DNA from: Streptomyces sp. CA-278952
GTDB lineage: Bacteria > Actinomycetota > Actinomycetes > Streptomycetales > Streptomycetaceae
Assembly: GCF_028747205.1 (NCBI RefSeq)
Contig: NZ_CP112880.1
Coordinates: 5,332,001-5,396,000, forward strand
Length of the DNA: 64,000 nucleotides
Direction of reading: 5' to 3'
Below the pieces are notes generated by a model, which made no database searches, was not told where the DNA came from, and was given only the letters and a program-made list of their open reading frames with translations. Shown one piece after another: positions 11,101 to 35,585 of this stretch. Position numbers and translations under genes: made by a program. Position 1 is the first letter of the stretch; every line of letters begins with the position of its first letter.

Positions 11101-11111
11101 GCCGTACGGGC

Positions 11112-11163: not shown

Positions 11164-11220
11164 AGCCGTACGCGCAGGCCGTACGCGTACGGAGCGCGGC
11201 GGGCCGGCCCCGGCCGGATT

Positions 11221-11254: not shown

Positions 11255-11261
11255 GACCCGC

Positions 11262-11627
11262 TCACAGCTCCGCGAGCGCCTTCTCGATCGCGCCCTCCTG
11301 GGCCTGGGCACCCTCCTGGAACCGGGCCCGCTCCGCCGGGTCCCGGATCTCCCCGGGCAGCTCCCGGCGCAGTGGCAGAAGGTCCGGCAGCTGCCGGAAC
11401 ACCACCGCTGCGGCGGGCCCCTCGCCCCGGTTGGCGGCGGCGGCCAGATAGCGGCCCGCCTGCCACAGGTGCACGGTGAGGTGCTTGCGCGGTTCGGTGG
11501 ACACCTGCCGCCGCGTCCCGGGCTTCCCCAGGGAGGGGTGCGTGCCCTCGCCGAGGCGCTCCAGCGCGGCGAGCGCCGCGTAGAGCTGTCCGCAGCGGTA
11601 GGCCTCGGTGAGCCGGTCGTTCGCCAT
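11262..11627 (-). CDS. Small orphan protein resembling the C-terminal domain of Cas8c/Csd1
   Basis: 121 aa from ATG 11627. The pattern AYRCGQLYAALAALERL, then STEPRKHLTVHLWQAGRYLAAA and DPAERARFQEGAQAQEGA, follows the order and spacing of the helical C-terminus of type I-C CRISPR proteins Cas8c/Csd1 (AYR.G.L.A.LE, then ST.P...F..LL.LA...L, then the RFA.GYYHQ-like end). There are no other cas genes, repeats or spacers nearby. So it is either a domesticated fragment of the Cascade large subunit or an old helical domain shared with it. It has no signal peptide. The family assignment is from memory of the pattern and needs a profile search. Confidence 0.55.
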   Translation of the reverse strand: MANDRLTEAYRCGQLYAALAALERLGEGTHPSLGKPGTRRQVSTEPRKHLTVHLWQAGRYLAAAANRGEGPAAAVVFRQLPDLLPLRRELPGEIRDPAERARFQEGAQAQEGAIEKALAEL

Positions 11628-20971: not shown

Positions 20972-21613
20972 TCAGCCGACGCCCCGCAGCAGTCGCTCCA
21001 GGCTACCCAGCAGCTTCAGCGCGTCCTCGCGCCGCGCACCCTCCAGCGCGCCCGTGCCCGCCACCGCGCGCTGCTCGGCCTCCCGCACCCGCTCCGGGGT
21101 GACCACCCGCAGCGCCGCGGCGGCCTGCCGGGCGAACATCGCGAGCAGATCCAGCTCCCGGACGCCCGTCCTGGCCTGCGGGGAGGGGTCCAGCACCTCC
21201 AGCACGCCGAGGATCCGGGAGTCGCTGATGAGCGGGGCCGCCATCAGGGCGTTCGGCACGTACGCGGTCGACTCGGCCAGCGAGCGGTCGAAGGACGCAT
21301 CCGTGCTCAGGTCGTCCACCACCATCGGCTCGCCGGAGGTCGCCACCCATCCGGCGATCCCGCGGCCGGCCGGGAAGCGGCGGCCCACGAGGAACTCCTC
21401 GCCCTGCCCGGACACGGCCTGGAAGACCAGCTCGTCCGCCTCCTCGTCGAGCAGGAAGACCGAGCTGGCCTCGGCCCCGAAGATGGCGCGGGCCACGTCG
21501 ACCACCGACTGGAGCAACTCGCGGCGCGGCGCGTCGGCGGTCCTGGCGTCGGCGACCTGGGCGGCGGTGGGGGAGGGGGAGAGGGAGGGAACGGGATCAG
21601 TTCTCGGAGTCAT
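20972..21613 (-). CDS. GAF-domain sensor protein
   Basis: 213 aa from ATG 21613, with GGAG about 9 nt upstream, overlapping the end of the subtilase gene by 17 bp. A single GAF domain covers about residues 30-180 (LLQSVVDVARAIFGAEASSV, FLLDEEADELVFQAVSGQGE, GRRFPAGRGIAGWVATSGEP, then PLISDSRILGVLEVLDP), followed by a helical tail. GAF domains bind small ligands such as cyclic nucleotides or haem. The neighbouring gene encodes a class III cyclase-like domain, so a cyclic-nucleotide signal is a reasonable guess. There is no output domain. Confidence 0.85.
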   Translation of the reverse strand: MTPRTDPVPSLSPSPTAAQVADARTADAPRRELLQSVVDVARAIFGAEASSVFLLDEEADELVFQAVSGQGEEFLVGRRFPAGRGIAGWVATSGEPMVVDDLSTDASFDRSLAESTAYVPNALMAAPLISDSRILGVLEVLDPSPQARTGVRELDLLAMFARQAAAALRVVTPERVREAEQRAVAGTGALEGARREDALKLLGSLERLLRGVG

Positions 21614-22598
21614 CACGGATATCTCCTGCCGCAGAGGAAGGACGCGGCGTGTGGCGCACATTGGCCGCGGACAGATAGAGGGCGTTCTTGAGCTGGAAGG
21701 CCGTCATCCGCGGATGCGCGGACAGGACGCGGGCGCAGAGCCCGGCGACGTACGGCGTGGCGAAGCTGTTCCCCGTGGTGCGGATCGTCCGGCCGCCCAG
21801 CCACGGCACGGTCACGTTCTGGCCGGGACCGAAGAACTCCACCGGGGGCTCCGGGTTGTACAGGTGCAGTTCGGGGTCGTCCTCCTGGTGGCTGCCCACC
21901 GAGATCACCGAAGCGAACCGCCAGGGGAAGCTCTCCACCGGGGTGTTGTGGGCCGAGGCGACGATCACCGTACGGGCGAAGTAGGCGCTGTCGGCCAGGC
22001 TGTGCAGCTCCTGCGCGAACTGTGCGCGGGTCGTCGACAGGCTGAGGTTGACCACGTCGAAGCCCTGCTCCACCGCCCAGCGCAGCCCGGCCATCAGGAC
22101 GTCGCCGGTGCCGGAGAACCGCTCCCCGAGCACCCGCACGCTGTGGATCTCGCACTCCGGGGCGGTCCGGCGGACGATGCCCGCGCACGCGGTGCCGTGC
22201 CCGCAGGTGTCCCCGGTGGTCGTCGGCTCGACCGTGATCCTCCCGGTCTCCCCGTCCTTGACGACCACCCAGGAACCGGCGAGCGGGCCTACCAGCGGAT
22301 GGTCCCGCTCCACGCCCGAATCCACCACGCACACGCGTACGCCGCGCCCGGTGGCGGGCCCGGCGGGGCGGCCGAGCGGTGGCCCGGGGTCCGCCAGCAC
22401 CGGTACGTCCTCCGGGCCACGGCCGCGCAGACTCCAGGTCAGCCCCTGCCCCGGGGCCCCGCGCGCTCCCGGGACCGTCCGCGGCTGTCCCGCCCCCGTT
22501 CCCGCCCCCGCCCTCGGCCGTTCCGGTTCCGTCCGTGGCCGTTCCGCCCTCGGCTGTTCCGGTTCCGTCCGTGGCCGTTCCGGTTCCGTGGTCGCCAT
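21597..22598 (-). CDS. Cytoplasmic subtilisin-family (S8) serine peptidase
   Basis: 333 aa with an N-terminal ERPRTEPE-type repeat tail and no signal peptide. The full catalytic triad is present: Asp in CVVDSGVERDHP (about 91), His in TCGHGTACAG (about 133), Ser in TTGNSFATPYVAG (about 280). The gene lies 3 bp after the cyclase/ATPase stop and overlaps the GAF gene, so it is part of one transcript with them. In RiPP loci such proteases often remove leader peptides. Here the absence of a secretion signal fits intracellular leader cleavage or regulated proteolysis of a signalling partner. Confidence 0.88.
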   Translation of the reverse strand: MATTEPERPRTEPEQPRAERPRTEPERPRAGAGTGAGQPRTVPGARGAPGQGLTWSLRGRGPEDVPVLADPGPPLGRPAGPATGRGVRVCVVDSGVERDHPLVGPLAGSWVVVKDGETGRITVEPTTTGDTCGHGTACAGIVRRTAPECEIHSVRVLGERFSGTGDVLMAGLRWAVEQGFDVVNLSLSTTRAQFAQELHSLADSAYFARTVIVASAHNTPVESFPWRFASVISVGSHQEDDPELHLYNPEPPVEFFGPGQNVTVPWLGGRTIRTTGNSFATPYVAGLCARVLSAHPRMTAFQLKNALYLSAANVRHTPRPSSAAGDIRDDSEN

Positions 22599-22601: not shown

Positions 22602-25600
22602 TCAGCTCCTCTCCCTCGTCGTGGCCAGGTGCCGGGGCGGGTGCGCGAGGAAGCCGGAGACCCGGCGCACCCCCGGCAGATGCCCCTTGCCCGTGAAGTG
22701 CGCCCCGGCCGACCGGGCCGAGGCCCCGGCCTCCGGCCACCTGCCCAGGGCGGCGAGCGTGTGCGCCCGGTCCAGCTCGGCCGTCGCCTGCACCAGCGGG
22801 GAGTCCGTGAGCAGCGAGGCCCTGACCGCCCGGTCCGCGTGTTCCGCCGCCTCCTCCGGGCGGTCCCGCACCGTCAGCCGGGCCCGCAGCCCCGCCAGGT
22901 CCACCGCGTCCGCACGGCTCAGCCCCGACGTGTCGCCGACGCCCGCCAGCCGGGCGGCCGCCGGGGTTTCCCGGCCCGCGTCCAGCTCCAGACGGGCCGC
23001 GTCCAGCGCCACCGCCGTCCGCATCCCGGCCGCCCCCGTATGCCGGGCCGCCGCGTCCGCCCGGCCCAGCAGGTCCAGGGCCTCCGTGCCGTTGCCGAGC
23101 AGTCCCTCCACCGTCGCCCGGAACACCGGGAGGAAGACCTCCGCCTCGGCGAACCCCAGCTTCCCGGCCAGCCGTTCCGCCTCGGCCAGGCAGCGGTACG
23201 CCTCGTCCGGCCGCTCCTGGAGCGCGTACAGCACCGCCAGCGGGCAGTTGAGGGTGACCCGGACCGTGGGCCGGCCCGCCCCGTGCGCGGAGAGCAGCGA
23301 CCGGCAGCGGACCACCGCGGCGGGCACCGGAACCGGCCCCCGCCACAGGGAGACGCCGATCGCGCCGAGCGCCCCGGCCCGCTCCGGCTCCGCACTGGCC
23401 AGCACCGCGTGCTCCAGGGCCCGCGCCTGGTCCCGCTCCGCCTCCTCGTGCCGCCCGGACCGCTGGAACTGCTGGGCGAGTCGCAGATGGGCCCGCGCCC
23501 GGCCCGCCGAGTCCCCGGCCGCCTCGAACACCGGCAGCACGGCCCGGGCCACGGCGGCGGGGCCGGGGCCCGGACCGCCCGGATCCAGCACCGCGAGCGC
23601 GAGGCGGGCATGCGCGGCCTCCACCGGATCGGACGCCGAGTCCCGTACGAGGCGCAGCAGTTCGGCCCCCTCCCCGGTGCGGCCCAGCGCCACCCGTACC
23701 TCACCGAGCCGCCGTGTCGCCGCCGGATCCCCGGGGCACAGGTCCACCGCCCGCTCCAGCAGGCCGTGCGCCCAGTGCAGGTCGGACCGGGCGGCGGCCT
23801 GCGCCCCGGCCCGGCCCAGCGCGGCGGCGGCCCGCTCGCGCAGCCGCCGGGCCGGATCGTCCAGCAGGCCCAGCTCCGCGCGGTAGCGGTAGGCGCGCTC
23901 CAGGTGGCCGCCGACCGCGCCGTCGCCGCTCCGCAGCACGCTGGGCAGCTCCGCCGCCCAGGCATGGCGTTCCGCCTTGGCCCGCTTGGACAGCGAGGCG
24001 TACGCCACCTCGTGCACCAGTCCGCTGCTGAACCGGTACGACGCCGGCTCCCGGGCCCTCGTGGCCCCCGACTCCACCAGGCGGCGCCGGCCCAGCACCG
24101 CCAACGCCTCCTCGACGCGCCGCCGGTGCTCCGGGGCCACCCCTGCCGCGCCGGTCGCCCCGGCGAGCTGCCCGGCGTCGTGGCCCTCGCCGGCCCGTAC
24201 GGACAGCTCCAGCCGGACCAGCTCCGGCGCGGTGAACTCCCGGCCGATCACCGCCGCCAGGTCCACCACCCCGCGCTCCGCCCGGGCCAGGGCCCCGATG
24301 CGCGCGCCCAGCAGGGCCTGGAGCGTGGGCGGCAGATCCTCCTCGGCGGCCGGTTCCCCCGGGCGGGCGGCGACCGCCGGGTCCGCCCGGTCGCCGACCA
24401 ACAGCTGCTCCAGGTAGAGCGGATTGCCCCCGGCCCGCGCCAGGAGCCGGTCGTCCACCGGGGCCGTCCCGGCGTCCGAACCGGCGAGACCGGCCGCGAG
24501 CCGCGCCGCCTCCGCGGGCGGCAGGCCGGTGAGCTGGAGCCGCCCCGCACCGGAAAGCGCGTCCCCCTCGCCCGGCCCGTCCGAACCCACAGCGTCGTCC
24601 GAAGCCTCCGACTCGTCCGGTCCGTCCGGTCCGTCCGGTCCGTCGGGCCGCCCGGCGCAGAGCACCAGCACTCCCGCGCACCCCGAGCCGTCCGTCAACC
24701 GGTTCACCGTGCGGACCAGCAGCGGGGCCGCCGCGTGCCAGTCGTCCAGCACCAGGACGACCGGGCGGGCTCGGGCGGCCCGCTCCAGAACCGCCGTCAG
24801 CGCCGCGCACATGTCCTCGAAGGGCGCGTTCGGCGTGCCGTCGCGCAGCAGGCCCTCGGACAGCAGCGCCATCGCGTCGTCGACCGCCAGTCCGCCGGCC
24901 GCGTCCTTCGCGCCGACCGCAGGACGGGACGCGGGCGCAGGGACGGGCGCAGGGACGGGCGCAGGGCCGGTCTCAGGAACCTGCTCGGACAGGGGATCAG
25001 GCGCGGGCTCAGTTGTGGGCGCGGGCCCGGCCGCCACCAGCGAACGCACCGCGTCGGCCAGCGGGGCGAGGGTGCCGTGGTCCCCGTAACTGCGGCACCG
25101 CCCCGCGCCGTACGCGAGCGCGCCGGACGCCGACCGCCGCGCCAGCCACTCCCGTACCAGCCGGGTCTTGCCGATGCCCGCCTCCCCGGTGACCCGCAGC
25201 GGTCCGGACCGACCACCGTGCGCGGCCCGTTCCAGGGCGGCGTCCAGCGCCTGCCGCTCGGCGTCGCGGCCGACGAAGGGGACGTCGAAGCGGCGCAGCA
25301 GCTCGGGGTCGTCCGCGCCCAGGGCCAGCAGCCGGTAGGCCTCCACGCTGTCCCGCTTGCCCTTCAGCCGCAGCGGCCCGGTGGGCTCGGCGCTCACCGT
25401 CGGGCCGGCGGCGAGCAGGGTCTCCGGCCCGATCAGGATCTCGCCGGGGCCCGCGTTCTGCTCCAGCCGGGCGGCGATGTTGACGGTCTCCCCGGAGACC
25501 AGGGCCTGCCGGGCGGTCGTGTCCGAACCCGCCACCACCTGACCGGTGTTGACGCCGATCCGGGTGATCAGCTCGATGCCCAGGGTGGCGGCCAGCTCCT

Positions 25601-25985
25601 CGTTCAGCCGGGCCAGCGCCCGGCGCATCCCGAGCGCCGCCGCCAGCGCCCGGCGGGCGTCGTCGTCACGGACCACCGGTACGCCGAACACCGCCATCAC
25701 CGCGTCCCCGATGAACTTCTCCGGCGTGCCGCCCCGCGCCACGATCTCCGCGCTCATCGCCTCGAAGTACCGCAGGGTCACCGTGCGCAGCGTCTCCGGG
25801 TCGAGCACCCCGGACAGTGCGGTGGACCCGACGAGATCGCAGAACAGCACGGTCACCGGCTTGCGTTCGTCACCGGGCGGTGCGGCGGAGGCCGGTCCGG
25901 CCCCGGTGGTCGCGCACGGCGTCCCGCAGGACGAACAGAACCGTGCCGTCGGCGGCAGATCCTGCTGGCACGAGGAGCAGTTCAT
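22602..25985 (-). CDS. Zinc-ribbon / class III cyclase / AAA-type ATPase regulatory protein
   Basis: 1127 aa from ATG 25985, with GAGAGAAGGA upstream. Order: a zinc ribbon (CSSC at 3-6 and CSSC at 17-20); a class III adenylate/guanylate cyclase domain with the metal Asp residues in VLFCDLVGST and FIGDAVMAVFG (about 45-215); an orc1/cdc6-like ATPase with Walker A VTGEAGIGKTRLV and Walker B VVLVLDDWH; and a long TPR-like helical C-terminus. There is no HTH. Such proteins couple a cyclase-homology domain to a STAND-like ATPase and are suspected stress or metabolism switches; cyclase activity is not certain. A (GTGACGTC)4 tract lies upstream. Confidence 0.87.
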   Translation of the reverse strand: MNCSSCQQDLPPTARFCSSCGTPCATTGAGPASAAPPGDERKPVTVLFCDLVGSTALSGVLDPETLRTVTLRYFEAMSAEIVARGGTPEKFIGDAVMAVFGVPVVRDDDARRALAAALGMRRALARLNEELAATLGIELITRIGVNTGQVVAGSDTTARQALVSGETVNIAARLEQNAGPGEILIGPETLLAAGPTVSAEPTGPLRLKGKRDSVEAYRLLALGADDPELLRRFDVPFVGRDAERQALDAALERAAHGGRSGPLRVTGEAGIGKTRLVREWLARRSASGALAYGAGRCRSYGDHGTLAPLADAVRSLVAAGPAPTTEPAPDPLSEQVPETGPAPVPAPVPAPASRPAVGAKDAAGGLAVDDAMALLSEGLLRDGTPNAPFEDMCAALTAVLERAARARPVVLVLDDWHAAAPLLVRTVNRLTDGSGCAGVLVLCAGRPDGPDGPDGPDESEASDDAVGSDGPGEGDALSGAGRLQLTGLPPAEAARLAAGLAGSDAGTAPVDDRLLARAGGNPLYLEQLLVGDRADPAVAARPGEPAAEEDLPPTLQALLGARIGALARAERGVVDLAAVIGREFTAPELVRLELSVRAGEGHDAGQLAGATGAAGVAPEHRRRVEEALAVLGRRRLVESGATRAREPASYRFSSGLVHEVAYASLSKRAKAERHAWAAELPSVLRSGDGAVGGHLERAYRYRAELGLLDDPARRLRERAAAALGRAGAQAAARSDLHWAHGLLERAVDLCPGDPAATRRLGEVRVALGRTGEGAELLRLVRDSASDPVEAAHARLALAVLDPGGPGPGPAAVARAVLPVFEAAGDSAGRARAHLRLAQQFQRSGRHEEAERDQARALEHAVLASAEPERAGALGAIGVSLWRGPVPVPAAVVRCRSLLSAHGAGRPTVRVTLNCPLAVLYALQERPDEAYRCLAEAERLAGKLGFAEAEVFLPVFRATVEGLLGNGTEALDLLGRADAAARHTGAAGMRTAVALDAARLELDAGRETPAAARLAGVGDTSGLSRADAVDLAGLRARLTVRDRPEEAAEHADRAVRASLLTDSPLVQATAELDRAHTLAALGRWPEAGASARSAGAHFTGKGHLPGVRRVSGFLAHPPRHLATTRERS

Positions 25986-26200: not shown

Positions 26201-26419
26201 TCAGAACAGGGCGCCGCCGGCGATCTCGCCGTGCGCCTGGACCTCCGGTCCCACGGCGTCCAGCCGGCCCTTGACGTCCAGCAGCAGCGCCAGTTCCTCC
26301 GGCGTCAGCCCGCACAGCACCTCGCGCTGCTCCTCGGTGAGCAGATCCACGGGGAACCCCGCCTCGTACAACGCGGCGGGCAGCACGGGCCGTTCGCCGT
26401 TCTCGGGTGGTCCGGTCAT
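26201..26419 (-). CDS. Small 'aroma-sacti cluster'-type protein
   Basis: 72 aa. The central block AALYEAGFPVDLLTEEQREV, then GLTPEELALLLDVKGRLDAV and GPEVQAHGEIAGG, resembles short actinobacterial proteins annotated as 'aroma-sacti cluster domain', which occur beside radical SAM genes. It has one Cys, is acidic and helical, and ends in GEIAGGALF. Its ATG overlaps the stop of the di-iron gene (ATGA), so it is the third gene of a coupled trio. It could be a precursor peptide, a leader-like adaptor or a chaperone; the sequence alone does not decide. Confidence 0.7.
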   Translation of the reverse strand: MTGPPENGERPVLPAALYEAGFPVDLLTEEQREVLCGLTPEELALLLDVKGRLDAVGPEVQAHGEIAGGALF

Positions 26420-27171
26420 GGTGTGACTCCCATCGGTGGGACGAGTCCGGCCCCCCGCAGCGACGGCGCCGGTGCGGAGCGCCCGAGCCGGACGAACAGC
26501 CGGGTGAGCGCGTCGAGGGAGTGCAGCGCGCTGACCGCCACGGCCGCTTCGGCCCCCCGGCCGAGCGGCAGCCGGTCCAGCAGCGCGTACAGCTCGTCCA
26601 GGTGCTCCGTGTCGAGCACCGCGTGCTCCCGTACGGTCCGCAGCGCGGCGGCGGGCAGCCCGGTCAGCCGGGCGATGCGGCCGGTGAGGCCGGGGGCCGG
26701 CGCGTAGCCCTCCAGCACGGCGATGTAGCCGAGCAGGGCGACCGGGTGGTGGTGCTCGATCCAGTAGTACTGGGATCCGACGAGCGAGGCGACCAGGGGA
26801 GAGGGCAGCGGACCGAGCGCGTCCCCGGGGTCGCCGCCCGCCGCCCGGAGGTCCTCCAGCAGCCAGGCGTCATGGCCCTCCTCCTCCCGGATGTGCTCCT
26901 CCAGGTACGCGGCGAGCGGTGCCCCCAGCGGATCGCCGGACGCGGCCCGGACGCGGGCGCGGTCGAGGGCCAGCTCCATCAGCGGAACGGAGGCGCGGAT
27001 GACGGCGTGCATGGCGCACAGATACGTCCGGTAGCGCGGCAACAGCCCCTCGGGACGCCACATATGGTGCGTCGCGTTCCGGAACTCCGGCTCCAGTAGG
27101 AGGAGTTTGACCCGCAGACGTGCGGAGGCCCCCACGCACCCGAGCCGCGTACCGCCGGCCACCGCGCTCAT
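26416..27171 (-). CDS. Haem-oxygenase-like di-iron (iron-containing redox) enzyme
   Basis: 251 aa, all-helical. Three helices carry the expected iron ligands: EEHIREEEGHDAWLLEDL (Glu..His), YYWIEHHHPVALLGYIAVLE, and REHAVLDTEHLDELYALLD (His..Asp..His). This is the pattern of haem-oxygenase-like di-iron oxidases (HDO), which perform N-oxygenation, desaturation or C-C cleavage, and of related 'iron-containing redox enzymes' in RiPP clusters. Its start is coupled (ATGA) to the radical SAM stop. It probably modifies the product of the radical SAM enzyme or a small precursor; the substrate is unknown. Confidence 0.78.
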   Translation of the reverse strand: MSAVAGGTRLGCVGASARLRVKLLLLEPEFRNATHHMWRPEGLLPRYRTYLCAMHAVIRASVPLMELALDRARVRAASGDPLGAPLAAYLEEHIREEEGHDAWLLEDLRAAGGDPGDALGPLPSPLVASLVGSQYYWIEHHHPVALLGYIAVLEGYAPAPGLTGRIARLTGLPAAALRTVREHAVLDTEHLDELYALLDRLPLGRGAEAAVAVSALHSLDALTRLFVRLGRSAPAPSLRGAGLVPPMGVTP

Positions 27172-28292
27172 CGGGCGTCCGGCGCGTCGGTCCGGGGCGG
27201 CGGCGACCCGCCCGCGGCGACCAGCGGCGCGTACGCCGCGCAGCCGTGGCGGCGCACGACACCCTGCGCACCCTCCCGGGAGCCGCGCACCGCGGCCGTC
27301 AGGTCCAGCAGCGCCCCGGCCGCCCCGCCCGCCACGGCGAGGGCCCCGACCGCCGCCGCCTCGTCGTCGCCCAGCGCCCGGCAGCCGTCGCAGTAGGAGC
27401 CCGCCGGGGGGCCGGAGCCGTACCGGGCGGCCAGATGCGCGGGCCCGACCGTGCGGAGCATGCGCAGCACCGGGGACTCCAGCGTCCGGCCGCGTACGGT
27501 CGCCCAGTCGTCGACGCCGATGTGCCCGAGGTCCAGATGGGCCGGGACGGGCCGCCGGTCGACGGTGTCCTGGTTGCAGCAGGCCAGCACCCGGCCGTCG
27601 AAGGCGACCACCGGCCAGGCGGCCATCGAGCACGGCGACGCCGCCGCCGGGTCGGGGCCGGTGCGGGCGGGCCTCGCCCAGGAGGCCGCCCGGCCGAACG
27701 GCCGCACCTCGTTGACCAGGCTGGGGACCCGGCCGCCGAACTCCTTCTCCACCGCCCGGGTGATGTCGGCGAGATACGGGTCGGACGCGCCGGTCCCGGT
27801 GAGGTGGAAGCTCACGGCCACGCCCTCGTCCTGGATCCGGTGCAGGGCGCGGAACACGTCGGCGCGCGGGACCTCGCGCTCGTGGTGGACGTCGAGGGAG
27901 GCCGAGAAATGGTCGACGGAGCGGATCGCGCGCAGGATGGCGGGGGGAATCGCAGCACCTCTTCGGCCTCGCAGGCTCCCGCCCCGGGCGAAGAACATGC
28001 CGCTGAGCAGTGCGGTACGGGATCCGGCGCGGTGCGCCAGCGCGCTCAGCCGTTCGGCGAGCGCGGGCAGCAGCAGGGGCTCCCCACCGGTGAGCATGAC
28101 GACGTCGGGCCGGTTCTCCTCTGTGAACGAGCCGACGAAGCGCTCCAGTTGACCGCCGTCCGGTTCTTCCCGGGTGAAGAGGTCCGACCCGGTCGAGCAG
28201 TGCGCGCAGCGCAGGGGGCAGCGCCGGGTGAGGCCGAGGAGCAGACCGGCGGCCGGGTAGGGCCGCCGTGCGACGAGTTCGGCGAGTTCCAT
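27168..28292 (-). CDS. Radical SAM enzyme with C-terminal Cys-rich (SPASM/Twitch-like) region
   Basis: 374 aa from ATG 28292, with a perfect AAGGAGG 8 nt upstream. The 4Fe-4S motif is CPLRCAHC (Cys25, 29, 32); the SAM-binding GGEP is in MLTGGEPLLLPALA. Additional Cys occur in SPCSMAAWP, VLACCNQD and YCDGCRAL, typical of an auxiliary cluster region in peptide-modifying radical SAM proteins (sactionine, epimerase, C-C cross-link types). It is first gene of the minus-strand arm, divergent from two precursor peptides. A precursor or the small protein at 26201 is the likely substrate. Confidence 0.88.
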   Translation of the reverse strand: MELAELVARRPYPAAGLLLGLTRRCPLRCAHCSTGSDLFTREEPDGGQLERFVGSFTEENRPDVVMLTGGEPLLLPALAERLSALAHRAGSRTALLSGMFFARGGSLRGRRGAAIPPAILRAIRSVDHFSASLDVHHEREVPRADVFRALHRIQDEGVAVSFHLTGTGASDPYLADITRAVEKEFGGRVPSLVNEVRPFGRAASWARPARTGPDPAAASPCSMAAWPVVAFDGRVLACCNQDTVDRRPVPAHLDLGHIGVDDWATVRGRTLESPVLRMLRTVGPAHLAARYGSGPPAGSYCDGCRALGDDEAAAVGALAVAGGAAGALLDLTAAVRGSREGAQGVVRRHGCAAYAPLVAAGGSPPPRTDAPDAR

Positions 28293-28374
28293 GCGGGCCG
28301 CCTCCTTCGGGGCCGGGGCGCGTCGGGCGCGTACCCAGGCTGCGCGCCACCGGTTCGCGGACGGTCCGGCGGGG

Positions 28375-28391
28375 CTTCGGCGGCGGTATGG
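28375..28391 (-). promoter_or_regulatory. Promoter box of the radical SAM arm (17 bp)
   Basis: Read on the minus strand it is CCATACCGCCGCCGAAG, identical at 16 of 17 positions to the plus-strand box at 28475-28491. Each box points toward its own transcription unit, 83 bp apart. This suggests one activator for both arms. Confidence 0.6.
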
Positions 28392-28474
28392 GACCAGGTG
28401 GGGGCGGGTTCCCGGCCCACCGACGGGGCCGAAAAGCGGTGCTTTCCTCCCTCCGAACTGGCCCGATACCGACG

Positions 28475-28491
28475 CCATACCACCGCCGAAG
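28475..28491 (+). promoter_or_regulatory. Promoter box of the precursor/LanKC arm (17 bp), with an 11-bp spaced direct repeat
   Basis: CCATACCACCGCCGAAG, 122 bp before the first precursor ATG. Just upstream, GATACC at 28465 and CATACC at 28476 repeat with an 11-bp period, the spacing typical of SARP heptamer sites. A SARP gene lies at 33338-35317. Together with the 28375 box it accounts for the 320-bp gap 28293-28612, which otherwise has no gene. Confidence 0.55.
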
Positions 28492-28612
28492 CGATCGCCA
28501 GGCCCGGCTTCCTAACTTTCTCGGCAACGGCAGGCACCGGCCGGCCGCACCGGACACCGAGGGGCGCGCCCCACGGACCCGGACCCGCAGTGACGAGTGG
28601 ATGGAGACCGCC

Positions 28613-28774
28613 ATGTCCGAGAACACCAAGCCCGCCGCCGACGACACCAACGAGGCCCCCGAGGTCGAGGCGCACTCCGTGCTGGACCTCCAGGAGACGG
28701 CCGTCAACGCCGACCGCGACATCATCGCGCCCCCCGGCAACTGCATCAGCGTGCTGAGCGTCGTCGAGAACTGA
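28613..28774 (+). CDS. Class III-type RiPP precursor peptide, copy 1
   Basis: 53 aa, ATG 28613, with GGAG 6 nt upstream. The leader is acidic (MSENTKPAADDTNEAPEVEA) and contains SVLDLQET, the (L/I)xLQ recognition motif of class III lanthipeptide leaders. The C-terminal core is GNCISVLSVVEN. It has one Cys placed before two Ser (C-x-S-x-x-S) instead of after them, so the canonical S-x-x-S-x(n)-C labionin motif is missing. A second peptide follows 93 bp downstream with an almost identical ribosome-site region and leader start. It should be modified by LanKC (30754) and possibly by the radical SAM arm. Confidence 0.85.
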   Translation: MSENTKPAADDTNEAPEVEAHSVLDLQETAVNADRDIIAPPGNCISVLSVVEN

Positions 28775-28867
28775 TCCCCGCAGGCCGGACGCCCAGGAGA
28801 GATCCCCGGGGGCTCCGGTCGTCCCGCTGATTCCTGTCATCGCAGTGACGAGTGGATGGAGACCGCC

Positions 28868-29017
28868 ATGTCCGAGAACACCGAGCCCACCGCCGACGAG
28901 ACCCCCGAGGTCGAGGCGCACTCCGTGCTGGACCTCCAGGAGACCGCCGCCCAGGGCGGCGACCAGACCGACGGCAACTGCATCAGCCTGCTGAGCGTCG
29001 TCGAAGCGCAGCGCTGA
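28868..29017 (+). CDS. Class III-type RiPP precursor peptide, copy 2
   Basis: 49 aa. The 5' region from GCAGTGACGAGTGGATGGAG to the sixth codon is nearly identical to copy 1, showing recent duplication. The leader MSENTEPTADETPEVEAHSV is followed by LDLQETAA; the core is GNCISLLSVVEAQR. Between the copies the segment from LDLQET to the core has drifted (NADRDIIAPP versus AQGGDQTD) while GNCIS-L/V-LSVVE is kept, so the core is the selected part. The tails differ (N versus AQR). A strong hairpin follows at 29096, before the MFS gene. Confidence 0.85.
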   Translation: MSENTEPTADETPEVEAHSVLDLQETAAQGGDQTDGNCISLLSVVEAQR

Positions 29018-29095
29018 TCCCACCGGGCCGTGCGCCGCGGCGGGACGAGGCCGACGCCTCGCCGCCGCGGCGCCCGGACGACGGGGAGGCGGTAC

Positions 29096-29126
29096 GGGGC
29101 GGCTCCGTGAACACGGGAGCCGCCCC
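29096..29126 (+). terminator. Strong hairpin after the precursor genes (attenuator)
   Basis: GGGGCGGCTCC and GGAGCCGCCCC form an 11-bp perfect stem, which can extend through CGTG-AA-CACG with one bulged G. It lies 78 bp after the second precursor and 230 bp before the exporter. It would let the precursors be made in excess over exporter and synthetase. Confidence 0.75.
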
Positions 29127-29260
29127 GCCGCGACTCCGGCCGCCCCGCCGCGACTCCGGCCGCCCCGCCGCGACTCCGGCCGCCCCGCCGCGACTCCGGC
29201 CGCCCCGCCGCGACTCCGGCCGTCCTGCCGTGTTCCGGCCGCCCCGCCGTACTCCGCCCC
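29121..29260. repeat. 20-bp tandem repeat CGCCCCGCCGCGACTCCGGC
   Basis: Five exact copies (29121-29220) and about two degenerate ones. There are no spacers, so it is not a CRISPR array. The first copy overlaps the 3' arm of the hairpin. It fills most of the 339-bp gap between precursor 2 and the MFS gene; I see no gene there. Confidence 0.85.
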
Positions 29261-29356
29261 GCCCCGCCACATGACCCGCGTCCGCACAGCGGAGGCCCGT
29301 CTCTCACACCGCCTGCCCGACCACCGCCCTGCCCGACGATCTCCGGGAGCCCTCCG

Positions 29357-30742
29357 ATGGCCACGTCGCTCCGCTCCAACAGGGATTTCCGGCTGCTCTG
29401 GATGAGCGGCTTCTTCGCCGTTCTGGGCAGCCAGATGGGCGCCCTCGCGCTGCCCCTGCTCATCCTCAAGGAGACCGGCTCCGCCGTGCAGGCCGGTCTC
29501 GTGGGGACGGTGTCCGTCGGCGCCGTGCTGATCACGATGCTGCCGGGCGGGGTCATGGCCGACCGGGTCGAACGCCGCCGCCTGATGCGGCTGTGCGACG
29601 TGGGGAGCCTGGCCGCGGTCACCGCCCTGACCATCGCCGTGTGGAACGGGAGCGCCCCGATGCCGCTCGTCCTGCTGGTCGCGACCGCCGGGGCCGTGCT
29701 GAACAGCGTCTACGCCCCCGCCGCCTTCGGCCTGATGCGCGCGGTCGTGCCGCCGGACCAGATGGGCACGGCGACCGCACGCCTCCAGGCGCGTACCTCC
29801 ACCGTCCGACTGGTCGGCCCGCTCGTCGGCGGTGCGTTGTTCGGCGTGCACCAAGCCCTGCCCTTCACCGCCCAGTTCCTCGGGCTGTTGCTCTCGACGG
29901 TCTGCGTGGCCCTCGTGCGGACCCGCTCGGAGGCCAGGACCAAGGCCGGTTCGGTGTTCAGCCGCCGGGAACTCACCGCCGGCCTCACCTTCCTGTGGCA
30001 ACTGCCCTACCTGCGCACGGTGCTGCTCGTCTTCGGCCTGGGCATGAACTTCGCGTTCGGCGCCCTCACCTTCACCGCGCTCGCCGTCTTCTCCGAGGGC
30101 GGGCGCTCCGGCCTCGGCGGCGGCTTCGTCATCACCTGCGTCTCGGCGGGCGCCCTCGTCGGCGCGCTGCTCGCGCCCCGGCTCGCACCCGACCGCCACG
30201 TCCGGACGCTCATCGTCATCACCTGCTGGAGCTGCGTCGGGACGGCCGCCGCGCTGGCCTGGCTCAGCAGCCCGCTGCTGGCCGGCCTGTTGTGCGCGCT
30301 CTGCATGTGCCTGTCGACGATCGCCAGCATCGGCTTCCTCTCGACCCTGCTGGTCGTCACCCCGGAGGACCGGCTCGGCCGGGTGCAGAGCGCGGCGAGC
30401 TTCCTGTCCTCCGTCGTCCAGCCGTTCGGGCCCCTCGCGGGCGGCGCCCTGCTGACCGCTCTGGGCAGCCGCGCGGCCTTCGGGGTGACCGGGTGCGTGC
30501 TGGCCGTCTCGGCGGCCGTGGTGACGTTCGCCCCCTCCGTACGGGCCGGTGCGGTCCCCGATCCCGCCGGTGCGGTCCCCGATCCCGCCGGTGCGGTCCC
30601 GGCTCCCGCCGGTACGCGGACGCCCGGGGAACCCGCTCCCGAACCGGCTGGAGCCGCCCGGACCCACCAGGGGACCGCCGTGGAGGACCCAGCCCCGGCC
30701 CGACCCACCCCCGACCCCGCCGGTCGTCCCGGCGCACTCTGA
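29357..30742 (+). CDS. MFS exporter of the RiPP locus
   Basis: 461 aa with twelve hydrophobic segments of the MFS_3 (EntS-like) type: FRLLWMSGFFAVLGSQMGA at the N-terminus, the loop 2-3 motif GGVMADRVERRRLM, and QLPYLRTVLLVFGLGMNFAF mid-protein. The C-terminal 60 residues are a cytoplasmic tail with AGAVPDP repeats (18-nt DNA repeat at about 30545-30615). The stop is 11 bp before the LanKC start, so the two genes are co-transcribed. It probably exports the mature peptide; class III loci usually use ABC exporters, so an MFS here is somewhat unusual. Confidence 0.85.
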   Translation: MATSLRSNRDFRLLWMSGFFAVLGSQMGALALPLLILKETGSAVQAGLVGTVSVGAVLITMLPGGVMADRVERRRLMRLCDVGSLAAVTALTIAVWNGSAPMPLVLLVATAGAVLNSVYAPAAFGLMRAVVPPDQMGTATARLQARTSTVRLVGPLVGGALFGVHQALPFTAQFLGLLLSTVCVALVRTRSEARTKAGSVFSRRELTAGLTFLWQLPYLRTVLLVFGLGMNFAFGALTFTALAVFSEGGRSGLGGGFVITCVSAGALVGALLAPRLAPDRHVRTLIVITCWSCVGTAAALAWLSSPLLAGLLCALCMCLSTIASIGFLSTLLVVTPEDRLGRVQSAASFLSSVVQPFGPLAGGALLTALGSRAAFGVTGCVLAVSAAVVTFAPSVRAGAVPDPAGAVPDPAGAVPAPAGTRTPGEPAPEPAGAARTHQGTAVEDPAPARPTPDPAGRPGAL

Positions 30743-30753
30743 GGAGAAACGCC

Positions 30754-33351
30754 GTGCCCGGACCGCAGCAGACCCAGCTCTACTGCCTCGCCGACCGTAC
30801 GTACTACGACACCCCGGCCCGGCTGCGGGACGAGGAGACCCGCTTCCCGCTGGACTCCGCCCCGCCCCCCGAGGGCTGGCGCCGGACCCCGGGCGGGCTG
30901 TGGACCTCGATGCTGCCCGAACACGGCGAACCGGCCGCGCAGGGATGGAAGATCCATGTCTCCACCGTCCCGGAGGAGGCGGAGGCGACCCTCCGCGACA
31001 CCACCGGCGTCTGCCTCTCCCACCGGGTGCCGTTCAAGTTCCTCCGCAGCGAGCAGGCGCTCCTGCTGATGTCCGGCAAGTACATGTCCCGCTCCGGCGC
31101 GGGGAAGTTCCTCACGCTCTATCCGCCGGACGAGACCCTCTTCCTGCGGGTCCTGGACGAGCTGACCCGCGTCCTCGCCGGACGGCGGGGCCCCTACATC
31201 CTCAGCGACCTCCGGATCGGCGACACCCCGGTGCACGTCCGGTACGGGGCGTTCACCGCCCGCTGGTGCCAGGACGGAGACGGCGAACGCGTCCCCGCGC
31301 TGCGCCACCCCTCGGGCGAACTGGTGCCCGACGAACGCGGGGTGGTGTTCCGGGTGCCGCCGTGGGTCACCGTCCCCGAGGCGCTGCGCCCGCACCTGGC
31401 GGCCCGCGCGGCCGCCGGGGACGCCGCCTTCCCCTACACCGTCACCTCGGCCCTCCAGTTCTCCAACGCGGGCGGGATCTACCTGGCCCGGCACCGGGAG
31501 ACCGGCCGGCAGGTGGTGCTCCGCGAGGCCCGGCCGCACTGCGGACTCGACGGGGCCGGCGACGACGCGGTGACACGGCTGCACCGCGAACACCGGGCCC
31601 TGACCGCGCTCGCCGGACTGGACTGCGTACCGAGGGTGCACGGGGTGACGACCGTGTGGGAGCACCACTTCCTGATCGAGGAGCACATCGAGGGGACCAC
31701 CCTCCTGGAGGAGATCGTCGCCCGCTTCGCCCTCGTCCGCGGGGGCACCGCCGCCGAACTCGCCCCGTACACCACGTGGGTGGACTCCGTGACCGAACAG
31801 CTCACACGGGCGCTCGCGGCCGTGCACGGGCGCGGCCTGCGCTTCGGCGACCTGCACCCCAACAACATCATCGTCCGCCCCGACGGCCGCGTCGCCCTCA
31901 TCGACTTCGAGTACGCCACCGATCTCGACGACCCGGACACCCCGACGGCGGGCGCGCCGGGCCTCCAGGCGCCCGCCGGGACCCCCGGCGCCGAGGCCGA
32001 CGCCTACGCGCTCTGGGCGACCTGGCTTTCCATGCTCATGCCGCTCATGGAGATGGCCGGGCACGACCGGGCCAAGGCCCTGACCCTGGAACGCTGGGCG
32101 CGGCGCAGGTACGGACTGGCGGCCGACGCGGGCCCCCGCCGCCCCGCCGCCCTGCGGACCGTGGAGGACGGCCGGGAGGGGGAGATCGCGGCCCTTCTCG
32201 ACGGCCCCGCCCCCGACTGGGCCGGCCTGCGGACCCGACTGCTCGCCGGACTCCACGCGGGCGCGACGCCCGAGCGCCGCGACCGGCTCTTCCCCGGCGA
32301 CCCGAAGGCCTTCGCCACCGGCGGAAGCGATCTGGCGCACGGGGCCGCCGGCGTCCTCTACGCCCTCCACCGCATCGGGGCCCCCGTCCCGGACGCCTGG
32401 ACCGACTGGCTCGTGGCGGCCGCCCACCGGCGCGACCCCGCGTCACCCGGCGGCCTGTTCGACGGACTGCCGGGCACCGCGGCGGTGCTGGCGCTCCTCG
32501 GCCGCCCGGACGAGGCGCGGGAGCTGTTCGTCCGCGCCACCGCCGCCGCGCGCCCCTCCACCTCCGCCGATCTCCTGACCGGCCGCGCGGGCACGGCCCT
32601 GGCCGCCCTGCGGCTGGCGACGGCCGGCACGTCCGCCCCGGACCCGGAGCTGGTGGACGCGGCCCTGCGCACCGCCTGGGACCTCGACTGCCTGGTCCGG
32701 GGCGAAACGGCGTCACCCGGCGGCCTGTCCGCCCCGCCCTCCGCGGGGCTGCTGCGCGGCCTGAGCGGCGTCGCCCTGCTGCACCTCGAACTCCACGCGC
32801 TCACTGGCGAGAAGTGGCTGCCGCGCGCCGCCCGCACCGCCCTGTACCGGGACTCCGGTCACTGCGCCGCGATGCCCGACGGCACCGTCCAGGTCAAGGA
32901 CGGCCGCCGCCACCTGCTCTACCTCGACCAGGGCAGCGGCGGCTTCGCCCTGGTCGCCCGCGCCTACCTGGCCCGGCATGAGGCGCCCACGCTCGCCGCC
33001 CTGCTGCCCGGCGTGCACAAGGGTTGCACCAACGAGTTCGTCCGTGAACCGGGGCTGTTCACGGGGCGGGCCGGACTGGTCGCCACCGCGCGCCAGTTGG
33101 AGCGGGGCCCGGCCGGGCCCGGGGTCCTCGCCTCCGTACGCAACCTGTCCTGGCACCTGGTCGCCGACGGGGACCGGCTGCTGGTGCCCGGGGCGGGGCT
33201 GCGCCGCTGCTCCGCCGACCTGGCCACCGGGGCGGCCGGGCTGCTGCTGGCCCTGCACTTCCTGGCCGGGGCGGAAGCCGACGGGCCCTCCCACGGGAGC
33301 CCCGCCGACGACCGGCCGCACGACCTGCTGAAGCTGCTCACCCTGGGCTGA
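30754..33351 (+). CDS. lanKC: Class III lanthipeptide synthetase LanKC
   Basis: 865 aa from GTG 30754, with GAGGAG 9 nt upstream. Three domains: an N-terminal lyase region (residues 1-210, with FKFLRSEQALLLMSGKYMSR), a Ser/Thr-kinase-like domain (about 225-460, with VVLREARPHC, catalytic HGRGLRFGDLHPNNII and the metal motif LIDFEYATDL), and a LanC-like cyclase (about 520-865, LAHGAAGVLYALHR, LFTGRAGLVATA). The cyclase lacks the WCxG and CHG zinc ligands, which defines class III over class IV. It should phosphorylate and eliminate Ser/Thr in the precursor cores and form (methyl)lanthionine or labionin. Its 3' end overlaps the SARP gene by 14 bp. Confidence 0.93.
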   Translation: MPGPQQTQLYCLADRTYYDTPARLRDEETRFPLDSAPPPEGWRRTPGGLWTSMLPEHGEPAAQGWKIHVSTVPEEAEATLRDTTGVCLSHRVPFKFLRSEQALLLMSGKYMSRSGAGKFLTLYPPDETLFLRVLDELTRVLAGRRGPYILSDLRIGDTPVHVRYGAFTARWCQDGDGERVPALRHPSGELVPDERGVVFRVPPWVTVPEALRPHLAARAAAGDAAFPYTVTSALQFSNAGGIYLARHRETGRQVVLREARPHCGLDGAGDDAVTRLHREHRALTALAGLDCVPRVHGVTTVWEHHFLIEEHIEGTTLLEEIVARFALVRGGTAAELAPYTTWVDSVTEQLTRALAAVHGRGLRFGDLHPNNIIVRPDGRVALIDFEYATDLDDPDTPTAGAPGLQAPAGTPGAEADAYALWATWLSMLMPLMEMAGHDRAKALTLERWARRRYGLAADAGPRRPAALRTVEDGREGEIAALLDGPAPDWAGLRTRLLAGLHAGATPERRDRLFPGDPKAFATGGSDLAHGAAGVLYALHRIGAPVPDAWTDWLVAAAHRRDPASPGGLFDGLPGTAAVLALLGRPDEARELFVRATAAARPSTSADLLTGRAGTALAALRLATAGTSAPDPELVDAALRTAWDLDCLVRGETASPGGLSAPPSAGLLRGLSGVALLHLELHALTGEKWLPRAARTALYRDSGHCAAMPDGTVQVKDGRRHLLYLDQGSGGFALVARAYLARHEAPTLAALLPGVHKGCTNEFVREPGLFTGRAGLVATARQLERGPAGPGVLASVRNLSWHLVADGDRLLVPGAGLRRCSADLATGAAGLLLALHFLAGAEADGPSHGSPADDRPHDLLKLLTLG

Positions 33352-35317
33352 GCGGACCGGCCGTCACCACCGTGACCGTGCGGGCGGGTAAGCCGATGGG
33401 ATGCGGGGCGAGATCCGGCGTCAGGTCCGGTACGACGGTGACGGCGGGTGCGCCGCTGTGCGCGGGAGCCTCCCGCTCGCGGGCGTACAGGCCGAGCAGC
33501 CTCGGCACCTCGTACAGCGCGGCGTGCGCGGTGACCTCCCCGGCGGGCGAGGTCACCGCACCGGCGCCGATCAGCGACTCGACGGCCCGGATCGCCGCCC
33601 GCTCCCCGCAGCCCAGCGCCGCCGTGGCCCGGTCCAGGGTGAACCCCCCGTCCTCGGAGAGCCCCGCCAGCCTCCCCAGCACCCACCGGTCGCCGTCCGC
33701 GAGATCCCGCCAGCCGGACGCGATCCGACCCCGTACGGAGACGTCCCCGGCGACCAGTTCGTCCAGTGCGGCCGACGGGTCCTCCAGCCGGGCCGCGTAC
33801 TCCGCCAGCGGCAGATGCCGCAGCACCGCGAGACGCATCCCGCTCACCTCCACCGCGAGCGGGAGCGCCCCGCAGGCCCGGACGATCCGCAACGCCGCCC
33901 CCGGGTCGGTCCGCAGCCGCCCGGCCCCGATCAGCTTCCCCAGCAGCTCCAGCGCCTCCCCGTCCGCCGGCGCGGGCAACGCGATCCGGTGCACCGGGGC
34001 GAGCCCCGCCAACTGCCCCCGGGCGGTGACCAGTACGGAACACTCCCCCGACCGGGGCAGCAGCCCCCGTACGGCCGCTTCGTCCGGCACGTCGTCCAGG
34101 ACGACCAGCGCCCGGTGCCGGGCCAGCCACCCCTGCCAGGCGTCCGCAAGGGCGGCTGTCACGCGGACGCCCGTCGGCCCGCCATCCGGCCCGCCCTCCG
34201 GCTCCGCGGGGGCGGCGCCCGCCACCCCGCACAGCCGCCCCAGCTCCGCCAGGACCTCCGCCCGGCTCCGCGCCGTACCGTCCTCCCGGCGCACCCGGAC
34301 ATGGACGCGGCCGTCGGGGAAGCGGTCGGCGAGCAGATGGGCCGCCCGGGCCGCGAGCGCCGACTTCCCCGCCCCGGCCGGGCCCGAGACGACCACCACA
34401 CGCTCCTCGCCGCCGCCCAGCACGTCGAGCAGGTCCCGCAGTTCGTCGCGGCGACCGGTGAAGGCCCCCGTACAGGCGGGCAGCGCCCCCGCGCTCCCCG
34501 CCTCCCGGGCGGCGGCGGGCCGCCGGGCCTCGCGCCCCCGGCCGAGCATCGAGCGGTACTGCGCCGCCATCGCCGGGCTCGGCTCCAGCCCCAGCTCCCG
34601 CGACATCAGCTGCCGGTAGTCGTCGTACACCGCCAGCGCCTCGGCCTGCCGGCCCGACTGGTGCAGGGAGGTCATCCAGGCGGCCCGGAGCCGCTCCCGC
34701 AGCGGGTGGCGCTCCACCAGATCCCGCAGCCCGTCCACCGCGACGGCGGCCCGGCCCAGCTCGATCTCGGTCTCCGCCCAGTCCTCGAACACCGTCAGGC
34801 AGCGGGCCTCCAGCCGGTCGGCCTCCTCGGCGACCCCGGCGGAGTCCCGCAGATCGTTCAGCGGCGGCCCCTCCCACAGGTCCAGTGCCTCGCGCAGCAG
34901 CCGGGCCGCGCCGGGCAGATCGCCCCGCCCGGCCGCCGCCCGCCCCGCACGGGCCAGCGCCCCGAACCGCAGGGTGTCCAGCTCGCCCTCGGCGATGCGC
35001 AGCAGGTAGCCCCCGCAGCCGTGCACCACCCGGTCCCGGCCCTCCTCCCCGGCGGGCCCCAGGAGGGCGCGGGCGGCACTGACGTAGACCTGGAGGTTCT
35101 TGCGGGCGGTACGGGGCGGATCGTCCGGCCACACCGCGTCGGTCAGCACGCCCACCGGTACGGGGGTGTTGGGGCGGGCCAGCAGCGTGGCGAGGACCAG
35201 GCGCTGCTTTCGCGGGCCGAGCGGCAGCTCACGGCGGTCCAGCCGGGCCGTGAGCGGGCCGAGCAGGGAGACGTACACCGCACCTGCGGAACCGGTACGG
35301 GCGGGAGGTCGGGTCAT
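33338..35317 (-). CDS. SARP-family transcriptional activator with NB-ARC-like ATPase
   Basis: 659 aa from ATG 35317, with GGAGG 8 nt upstream. An OmpR-type winged helix (VYVSLLGPLTARLDRRELPL, then GPRKQRLVLATLLARPNTPV) and a BTAD domain (FGALARAGRAAAGRGDLPGA, to about residue 250) make the SARP unit. An NTPase follows (Walker A VSGPAGAGKSALAARAA, Walker B ALVVLDDVPD), with a short helical end; it lacks the long TPR array of AfsR. SARPs bind 11-bp-spaced direct repeats to switch on biosynthetic genes. It sits between two lanthipeptide systems and is the best candidate for the boxes at 28375 and 28475. Confidence 0.9.
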   Translation of the reverse strand: MTRPPARTGSAGAVYVSLLGPLTARLDRRELPLGPRKQRLVLATLLARPNTPVPVGVLTDAVWPDDPPRTARKNLQVYVSAARALLGPAGEEGRDRVVHGCGGYLLRIAEGELDTLRFGALARAGRAAAGRGDLPGAARLLREALDLWEGPPLNDLRDSAGVAEEADRLEARCLTVFEDWAETEIELGRAAVAVDGLRDLVERHPLRERLRAAWMTSLHQSGRQAEALAVYDDYRQLMSRELGLEPSPAMAAQYRSMLGRGREARRPAAAREAGSAGALPACTGAFTGRRDELRDLLDVLGGGEERVVVVSGPAGAGKSALAARAAHLLADRFPDGRVHVRVRREDGTARSRAEVLAELGRLCGVAGAAPAEPEGGPDGGPTGVRVTAALADAWQGWLARHRALVVLDDVPDEAAVRGLLPRSGECSVLVTARGQLAGLAPVHRIALPAPADGEALELLGKLIGAGRLRTDPGAALRIVRACGALPLAVEVSGMRLAVLRHLPLAEYAARLEDPSAALDELVAGDVSVRGRIASGWRDLADGDRWVLGRLAGLSEDGGFTLDRATAALGCGERAAIRAVESLIGAGAVTSPAGEVTAHAALYEVPRLLGLYAREREAPAHSGAPAVTVVPDLTPDLAPHPIGLPARTVTVVTAGPLSPG

Positions 35318-35510
35318 CAGCGGGCCTCCGGAACGGGGACGGGCGGCGGACTGGGCCGTACGTACGTCCCGATCCTGCGGCCGCTCCGGCCCCCGCACAT
35401 CGGGGCCCCGCACGCATTTTCCGCCCGGCCACCCGACCGAAACCGCCCGGCGCCCCCATGTTGCCCGCCCCGGCCCCCACGTCCCCCGGAGCGGGCCCGG
35501 CTCAGGCCGG

Positions 35511-35585
35511 TGGGGCCGGTTCGGGCGGGCCCCGCCTCAAGCCGCTGGTTGCCGGTCCGGGCGGGCCCCGCCTCAGGCCGGTTCG
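35511..35585. terminator. Repeated GGGCGGGCCCCGCCTCA segments after the LAL gene
   Basis: Two copies of about 25 bp (GGGCGGGCCCCGCCTCA flanked by CCGGTTC/GCCG-like sequence) lie at and just beyond the 3' end of the LAL-LuxR gene. Each contains a GGCGGGCCCCGCC hairpin, so they probably act as a terminator. The rest of the 35318-35572 gap is the SARP promoter region and shows no gene. Confidence 0.5.

Follow-up and report, generated by a model that had tools for sequence, protein, structure and literature searches.

Class III lanthipeptide clusters of the SapB, NAI-112 and noursin type combine a LanKC synthetase with RamC_N and kinase parts, a short precursor with an LxLQ leader motif and a transporter; for noursin, PMC10206099 lists NorKC, the precursor NorA with LELQEL, an S9 peptidase and a transporter. 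Among S8 leader proteases, AmyP, a Bacillus enzyme from class III, is associated with a (T/S/A)EVE motif according to the review PMC10885120, which also has PatA cutting after G(L/V)E(A/P)S; recognition sequences flank each core of the cyanobactins (PMC4663559). The radical S-adenosylmethionine (SAM) epimerase EpeE works without a leader and requires Cys223 (PMC8326336), and one paper describes the StsA leader as carrying a WxxP motif. The subject here is a locus in a 64,000-nt stretch of Streptomyces sp. CA-278952 (contig NZ_CP112880.1; hereafter the window, with coordinates counted from its first letter), in which a LanKC arm lies divergently beside a radical SAM arm and peptides of both arms carry a short EVxAH tag.

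The locus is probably a composite, in which two co-regulated pathways for ribosomally synthesized and post-translationally modified peptides (RiPPs) would use one common processing chassis. That it holds two pathways is very likely from the sequence comparisons below, and confidence that the EVxAH tag marks the cutting site of the locus subtilase stands a little above even. The chassis, consisting of a cyclase/STAND protein, an S8 subtilase and a GAF-domain protein, mostly with a Streptomyces antibiotic regulatory protein (SARP), recurs beside different peptide modules. The common tag and the exchangeable slot for these modules are what is new here.

A preliminary description of the window had placed paired LDLQ precursors, a major facilitator superfamily (MFS) transporter and LanKC on one strand and a radical SAM enzyme, a haem-oxygenase-like di-iron oxidase (HDO) and an aroma-sacti protein, coupled by 4-bp overlaps, on the other. 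Domain models and the 70% identity between the two precursors bear out the first arm; domains and the sequence confirm the second, in which the radical SAM/HDO and HDO/72-aa genes each overlap by 4 bp (ATGA). The members it named stand, and it left out the cyclase, subtilase and GAF genes downstream, the SARP and the common motif. The arms and the chassis are laid out as follows.

20972..21613, minus strand: GAF-domain protein (Pfam GAF 74 bits), the last cassette gene
21597..22598, minus strand: S8 subtilase, proposed common leader peptidase (Pfam Peptidase_S8 90 bits; subtilisin BPN' E 2.5e-26)
22602..25985, minus strand: class III nucleotide cyclase-AAA_16-TPR protein, STAND-like (Pfam Guanylate_cyc 72 bits and AAA_16 74 bits, on 22602-25856)
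26201..26419, minus strand: 72-aa aroma-sacti-domain peptide, proposed precursor (NF045560 80 bits, cut-off 30)
26231..26245, minus strand: EVQAH tag in the 72-aa peptide (sequence motif)
26416..27171, minus strand: HDO (PF14518)
27168..28292, minus strand: radical SAM enzyme with auxiliary-cluster cysteines, EpeE/YydG homologue (PF04055; EpeE profile match)
28613..28774, plus strand: class III precursor 1, 53 aa (MSENT..PEVEAH extension, SVLDLQ, core C-x-S-x-x-S)
28661..28675, plus strand: EVEAH tag of precursor 1 (sequence motif)
28868..29017, plus strand: class III precursor 2, 49 aa, a diverged duplicate (LDLQ)
28907..28921, plus strand: EVEAH tag of precursor 2 (sequence motif)
29357..30742, plus strand: MFS transporter (PF07690 117 bits)
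30754..33351, plus strand: class III lanthionine synthetase LanKC, placed in class III by NF038151 (877 bits, cut-off 575; RamC_N PF25816 247 bits)
33338..35413, minus strand: SARP (AfsR-type) activator with EVTAH near its C-terminus at 33524-33538 (BTAD 133 bits)

The cyclase start was picked by comparison with relatives that open M.C..C, and the GAF and subtilase genes have 17 bp in common. Both class III precursors have the LxLQ motif expected of their class, though the tagged extension comes before it, and none of the NCBIfam precursor models matched either of them at E 0.1.

Conservation and the exchangeable peptide module

Conservation was followed mainly in 295 Streptomyces genomes, 43 of which hold the radical SAM family at E 1e-30 or better (G numbers denote sample genomes and L numbers fetched loci). 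Stretches of about 20 kb were fetched from 40 of the 42 other radical SAM genomes, with G186 added later and G271 left out, and genes in them were called by a simple GC-frame script. Cassette families were counted in the window plus 40 stretches (41 loci). Radical SAM and HDO genes are present in all 41, the GAF (family F2) and cyclase (family F3) genes in 40 each, and the subtilase was called in 38 and found by tblastn in 39 of the 40 fetched stretches. The 72-aa peptide was called in 36 loci, or 39 counting tblastn matches.

A LanKC match of at least 66% identity occurs in 19 of the 295 genomes, and the divergent radical SAM arm adjoins it in 19/19. The 55%-identical LanKC of G183 is likewise adjacent and divergent to the radical SAM gene. 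Within the stretches read (~20 kb), LanKC lies beside the radical SAM gene in 21 of 42 examined genomes and was not found beside it in the other 21. A second collection consists of named genomes scanned with the tagged precursor (41 loci, 13 of the 41 contigs apparently also being in the 295-genome sample), and 35 of its loci have both LanKC and radical SAM genes in the stretch. The remaining six comprise two contig edges, two loci with the arms apart, one with another module and one second G183 precursor, whose stretch stops before reaching the radical SAM gene.

The arms can also part. Kitasatospora sp. MAA19 and Streptomyces sp. MJM8645 have the tagged precursor, LanKC, MFS transporter, tagged SARP, cyclase, subtilase and GAF genes, and radical SAM, HDO and 72-aa genes were not found between the precursor and the cyclase. 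Profile searches of the whole genomes (9.1 and 9.2 Mb) did not find HDO or the 72-aa peptide in either, with two control genomes positive, and the sole match to the radical SAM query was at 21 bits in one of the two.

These distributions bear on two other explanations of the locus. A class III cluster lying by chance beside an unrelated cluster could account for the arms occurring apart, but it is highly improbable given the synteny in 19/19 genomes, the 35 named loci with both arms, the twin promoter boxes described below and a tag that, in the loci tested, is confined to this kind of locus; the synteny and the named loci rule out chance adjacency. The preliminary description had named arms found far apart and independently as evidence against its hybrid reading. 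The arms do occur apart, and they are nevertheless not mere neighbours, since a common tag, subtilase, regulator and matching boxes join them. The second explanation is a single hybrid peptide, with the class III precursors modified by LanKC, radical SAM and HDO alike. Strict adjacency in the 19 close-LanKC genomes, the matching boxes and the common tag favour this reading; it is disfavoured by the 21 of 42 genomes in which the radical SAM/HDO pair has no adjoining LanKC, by MAA19 and MJM8645, where the tagged arm has at most the 21-bit radical SAM match, and by the pair travelling with a precursor-like peptide of near-invariant end. A hybrid peptide is improbable, though it could apply in genomes having both arms. 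The other suggestion of the preliminary description, in which a common promoter region serves two RiPP pathways, is the better one and draws support from the twin boxes and the precursor-like make-up of the 72-aa protein.

The variable peptide module sits between the radical SAM and SARP genes or past the GAF gene. The 43 radical SAM genomes divide into 20 with the divergent LanKC module of the window (type A), one with a different LanKC (G003; 34% identical, precursor core order Ser-Ser-Cys), 10 of type B, four of type C, seven of type D and one unread (G271). A LanKC of the G003 kind also occurs on a short contig of G028, outside the 43, where only a radical SAM fragment is found elsewhere. 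Cassette LanKCs form two well-supported groups in the LanKC tree, which would suit two separate recruitments into the cassette and is also compatible with one origin. A profile of the tagged class III precursor matches 30 places in 23 of the 295 genomes, 28 of them at the cassette; the other two are the short G028 contig and, in G155, the type C precursor, which is matched in part and lies ~12 kb from the radical SAM gene. One type A locus (L063:1-20000, from G183) holds three LanKC genes or gene fragments together with four small peptides of the LxLQ type.

Type B has a 37-42-aa peptide and a radical SAM enzyme of a second family (TIGR04463-like in L065), with two copies of a further family (DUF6895 in L065), a glycosyltransferase, an MFS transporter and, in eight genomes, a prolyl oligopeptidase. 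Its tagged peptides have a core around GCI[IV]N (L059:10868-10987 and seven alike, L141:7857-7985 and L143:7413-7541). Type C has a multi-core peptide built on three repeats resembling WCGVHQE, a glycosyltransferase, a prolyl oligopeptidase and a radical SAM enzyme of the same family as the second one of type B; the peptides (L140:7903-8172, L142:8144-8413, L144:7666-7941 and L137:10694-10951) belong to a family that could not be named. Type D has two adjacent cassette-family radical SAM genes in 7/7 loci (L074, L075, L076, L077, L078, L079 and L157), and in L076 the second of the pair (10517-11461) scores 34 bits against the YydG epimerase model. A small protein of the type D genome G177 (L154:14470-14679), ~12 kb from HDO, ends in AEVEAHDSTPAYY and could be a tagged peptide. 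Streptomyces sp. R302 (L228:8001-13188) represents a further slot type with a tagged 47-aa peptide ending in IICGVYDKEVQA, a radical SAM enzyme, a glycosyltransferase, an MFS transporter and a methyltransferase-like gene, the last read from sequence alone.

The EVxAH tag and its candidate reader

Class III precursors carry the tag within their N-terminal extension, and the 72-aa peptide carries it just before its C-terminal end; type B peptides are tagged as well, and in type C peptides a tag stands ahead of each of the three cores as PEVVAH, PEVIAH or PEVEAH. Within the cassette loci it is carried by 24/24 rows of the main class III family, 34/36 rows of the 72-aa peptide, 8/8 of the type B family and 33/36 of SARP family F6. 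All other called proteins of these loci, 217,396 residues, have 16 matches, and the true background is lower than this count since it includes seven in cyclases, three in class III precursors that do not belong to the main family and one in a further SARP piece in L066. The motif is missing from three F6 rows, one from another SARP in L062 and two from the type D loci L074 and L079. EVxAH is present in 32 of the 35 SARPs read in the named collection (L217 was dropped as too short); of the other three, L220 has EITAH and two are interrupted by masking or a broken reading frame.

Controls exclude two broader origins of the motif. A general class III leader feature is ruled out by 20 non-cassette LanKC loci, in which a small open reading frame with EVxAH was found in 0/20; a plausible precursor was found in 16 of these, with LxLQ near the N-terminus and without the tagged extension. 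A general SARP feature was rejected on 30 SARP-like loci in four genomes, where EVxAH occurs in the two locus SARPs and in 0/28 others, a control weaker than its count because some of the 28 are short pieces perhaps not reaching the C-terminus.

The tagged arm persists in MAA19 and MJM8645 with neither radical SAM nor HDO convincingly found, which rules these two out as readers of the tag. Types B and C showed no LanKC, so the proteins that every tagged locus has in common come down to the subtilase, the cyclase and the GAF protein. For a tag that precedes cores, the subtilase is the natural candidate. V-x-A-H suits the P4-P1 preference of subtilisin-type enzymes. The Asp/His/Ser triad motifs are intact in the window enzyme and in its relatives (38/39 and 36/36). 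In the proposed mechanism the subtilase, taken as cytosolic, would cut after PEVxAH with V-x-A-H as P4-P1 and so free the C-terminal end of the 72-aa precursor as a short peptide of roughly GEIAGGALF. LanKC would modify the two tagged class III precursors, the subtilase would remove their MSENT..EVEAH extension, other proteases would trim afterwards and the MFS transporter would export the product.

A competing possibility, rather unlikely on present evidence, is that the cyclase/STAND protein, or the GAF protein, reads EVxAH as a precursor-sensing signal that the subtilase does not cut. Cyclase, GAF and subtilase travel together, so co-occurrence cannot tell them apart, and a tagged SARP activator fits a regulatory role. 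Against sensing stand the resemblance of the motif to those of AmyP and PatA, its fit to subtilase P4-P1 positions and its repetition ahead of every core in the multi-core peptides, an arrangement like that of the cyanobactin recognition sequences.

Several observations weigh against cutting at the tag by the subtilase and against the tag as a constant of the locus. No locus seen separates the cyclase, GAF and subtilase genes, so either of the first two could bind the tag. The class III precursors have the tag ahead of LDLQ, so a cut there keeps part of the leader. DVxAH replaces EVxAH in 2 of the 36 72-aa rows, and the L074 peptide has DVVPH. In L063 one of the small LxLQ peptides (17450-17557), next to an additional LanKC, is without the tag, and another peptide (11081-11212) has EVEVL in its place. 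A second tagged peptide module was not identified in the type D stretches (seven genomes). The favoured assignment nevertheless remains cleavage by the subtilase, at the modest confidence given above.

A wider proposal builds on cleavage and is speculative. The chassis would be general and exchangeable, with a single protease acting on at least five core types marked by EVxAH. The SARP tag would give processing-coupled feedback, in which the protease that matures the products would also cut the SARP or be titrated by it; the peptide derived from the 72-aa protein would be ancestral and the lanthipeptide a later passenger. This full version is considered unlikely.

An anti-phage, Pycsar-like role of the chassis was also considered. 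PycC models match the cyclase domain at up to 51 bits and a general subtilase model matches the subtilase at 64 bits, matches that are only weak or general, and among the anti-phage models searched none matched the GAF, HDO or 72-aa proteins.

The 72-aa peptide and the radical SAM/HDO pair

The 72-aa protein resembles a precursor in its own right, built of a leader domain, PEVQAH and the C-terminal core GEIAGGALF. Among the best 120 of 419 database relatives the C-terminus is near-invariant, and 118 fit EVxAH followed by 8-10 residues to the end, the commonest end being PEVQAHGEIAGGALF. A sactipeptide reading was rejected because the core has no Cys and NF045559, the model for StsA-related sactipeptide precursors, scores 25 bits, under its cut-off of 75.

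The radical SAM enzyme and HDO are inferred to modify the C-terminal part of this peptide because both accompany it in 39 of the 41 loci, and they fairly likely act on it. Two stretches (L075 and L078) in which a 72-aa relative was not found count against this assignment and lowered confidence in it slightly; in the second of these genomes a relative lies ~20 kb away (L153). In the proposed scheme the EpeE-like enzyme, perhaps epimerising backbone positions, and HDO, by O2-dependent oxidation, would work on the 72-aa peptide and not on the lanthipeptide.

The 72-aa protein could alternatively be an adaptor or carrier, for docking or for a small molecule built on its C-terminal aromatic residue by the logic of pyrroloquinoline quinone (PQQ) or mycofactocin. 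A radical SAM enzyme with a haem-oxygenase-like enzyme and a protease recalls PQQ biosynthesis, and the C-terminus hardly varies from species to species, whereas most RiPP cores diversify. The adaptor or carrier role is judged a minority prospect, because the domain is related to the StsA-related precursor model, if under its cut-off, and PEVxAH lies directly ahead of the C-terminal end as the tag precedes each core of the multi-core peptides.

The radical SAM enzyme matches a profile of EpeE (YydG), the peptide/epipeptide epimerase, at E 9e-11. EpeE is also its top Foldseek match, with a template modelling (TM) score of 0.54-0.56 on the query, and Cys240 aligns with the catalytic Cys223 of EpeE and is conserved in 27/28 rows. 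The position of EpeE Asp210 is not Asp in this family, which speaks against an epimerase, and TIGR04078 (YydG) scores 19.4 bits, below its cut-off of 300. The families seen beside the radical SAM gene are not EpeX-type precursors or M50-type proteases, although no dedicated search for these was made. An epimerase function is offered as a tentative assignment that falls somewhat short of even.

The AlphaFold2 model of HDO has a pLDDT of 91. Its best Foldseek match is the uncharacterised Shewanella protein 3dde, followed by UndA, HmuO, TenA-like proteins and CADD. Residues E97, H100, E154, H183, D187 and H190 are invariant in 30/30 sequences, and we take these to be the metal ligands on the pattern E, ExxH, HxxxDxxH. 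The predicted model thus has both the haem-oxygenase fold and the ligand set of the HDO superfamily.

Literature searches, with preprints and most subscription journals outside their reach, returned only an unrelated mention of 'EVEAH', nothing for 'aroma-sacti' and nothing for HDO combined with radical SAM, RiPP and diiron.

Regulation and comparison with known systems

The 320-bp divergent region holds two copies of CATACCnCCGCCGAAG, one toward each arm. These boxes and the regulator beyond the SARP are listed below.

28375..28390, minus strand: promoter box CATACCGCCGCCGAAG, pointing at the radical SAM gene (one of two exact genome-wide matches; conservation)
28476..28491, plus strand: promoter box CATACCACCGCCGAAG, pointing at the lanthipeptide precursors (one of two exact genome-wide matches; conservation)
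35573..38494, minus strand: LuxR/LAL-type regulator, a kept neighbour in close relatives (profile matches; synteny)

The 8.2 Mb genome has just these two exact matches to CATACCnCCGCCGAAG and seven more places at one mismatch; a reversed control pattern gave four places in all. The plus-strand box adjoins or lies in a GGTAT repeat with an 11-bp period (28458-28481), presumably the layout of SARP sites. The longer repeat pattern is not significant alone, matching at up to 3 mismatches in 13 of 100 shuffles. Fourteen of the 20 divergent-LanKC loci were scanned; both box orientations lie within 3 mismatches in nine of them and at least one in 13. Boxes were not found in the L063 and L058 scans, and in other slot types one orientation was found within 3 mismatches in 2/10. 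We infer that the SARP binds the twin boxes, and it would turn on both arms through them. Between precursor 2 and the MFS gene (29100-29240) lies a GC-rich tandem repeat of ~20-bp, CCGCCCCGCCGCGACTCCGG-like units, noted by eye.

If the composite reading is correct, a conserved Streptomyces locus would be a natural plug-in system for peptide modification, useful for peptide engineering: by way of one short, portable tag, LanKC, radical SAM/DUF6895 and other peptide modules would all be served by a single protease. Leader boundaries would become predictable for the 200 precursor relatives returned by one search, a transcription activator bearing the processing tag of its own pathway would be a testable case, and a likely substrate is named for an uncharacterised radical SAM/HDO pair.

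Compared with known class III clusters, the window has its LDLQ pushed inward by an MxENT..PEVEAH extension, with the tag ending at residue 17-25. The precursor core in the window and its close relatives is C-x-S-x-x-S and not the labionin motif S-x-x-S-x(n)-C, an order that is typical of class III and not required; the Ser-Ser-Cys order is seen in the L058/G028 type. The window further adds a second RiPP pathway, the cyclase, subtilase, GAF protein and SARP. StsA-related precursors have a leader domain related to that of the 72-aa protein, whose proposed core is without Cys, leaving no sactionine possible there. EpeE is the closest solved relative of the radical SAM enzyme, with the catalytic Cys kept; the window enzyme is without Asp210, has 14-16% identity over the structural match and is joined by HDO. 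UndA and CADD share with HDO the predicted fold (TM ~0.6 each) and the full set of likely metal ligands, and differ in that identity is 16-19%, the haem oxygenase HmuO scores similarly and the presumed substrate is a peptide. Like AmyP and PatA, the window subtilase has intact triad motifs and lies beside peptides bearing a short motif. Unlike theirs, its motif is common to peptides of different RiPP classes and to the locus activator, and cleavage is predicted here.

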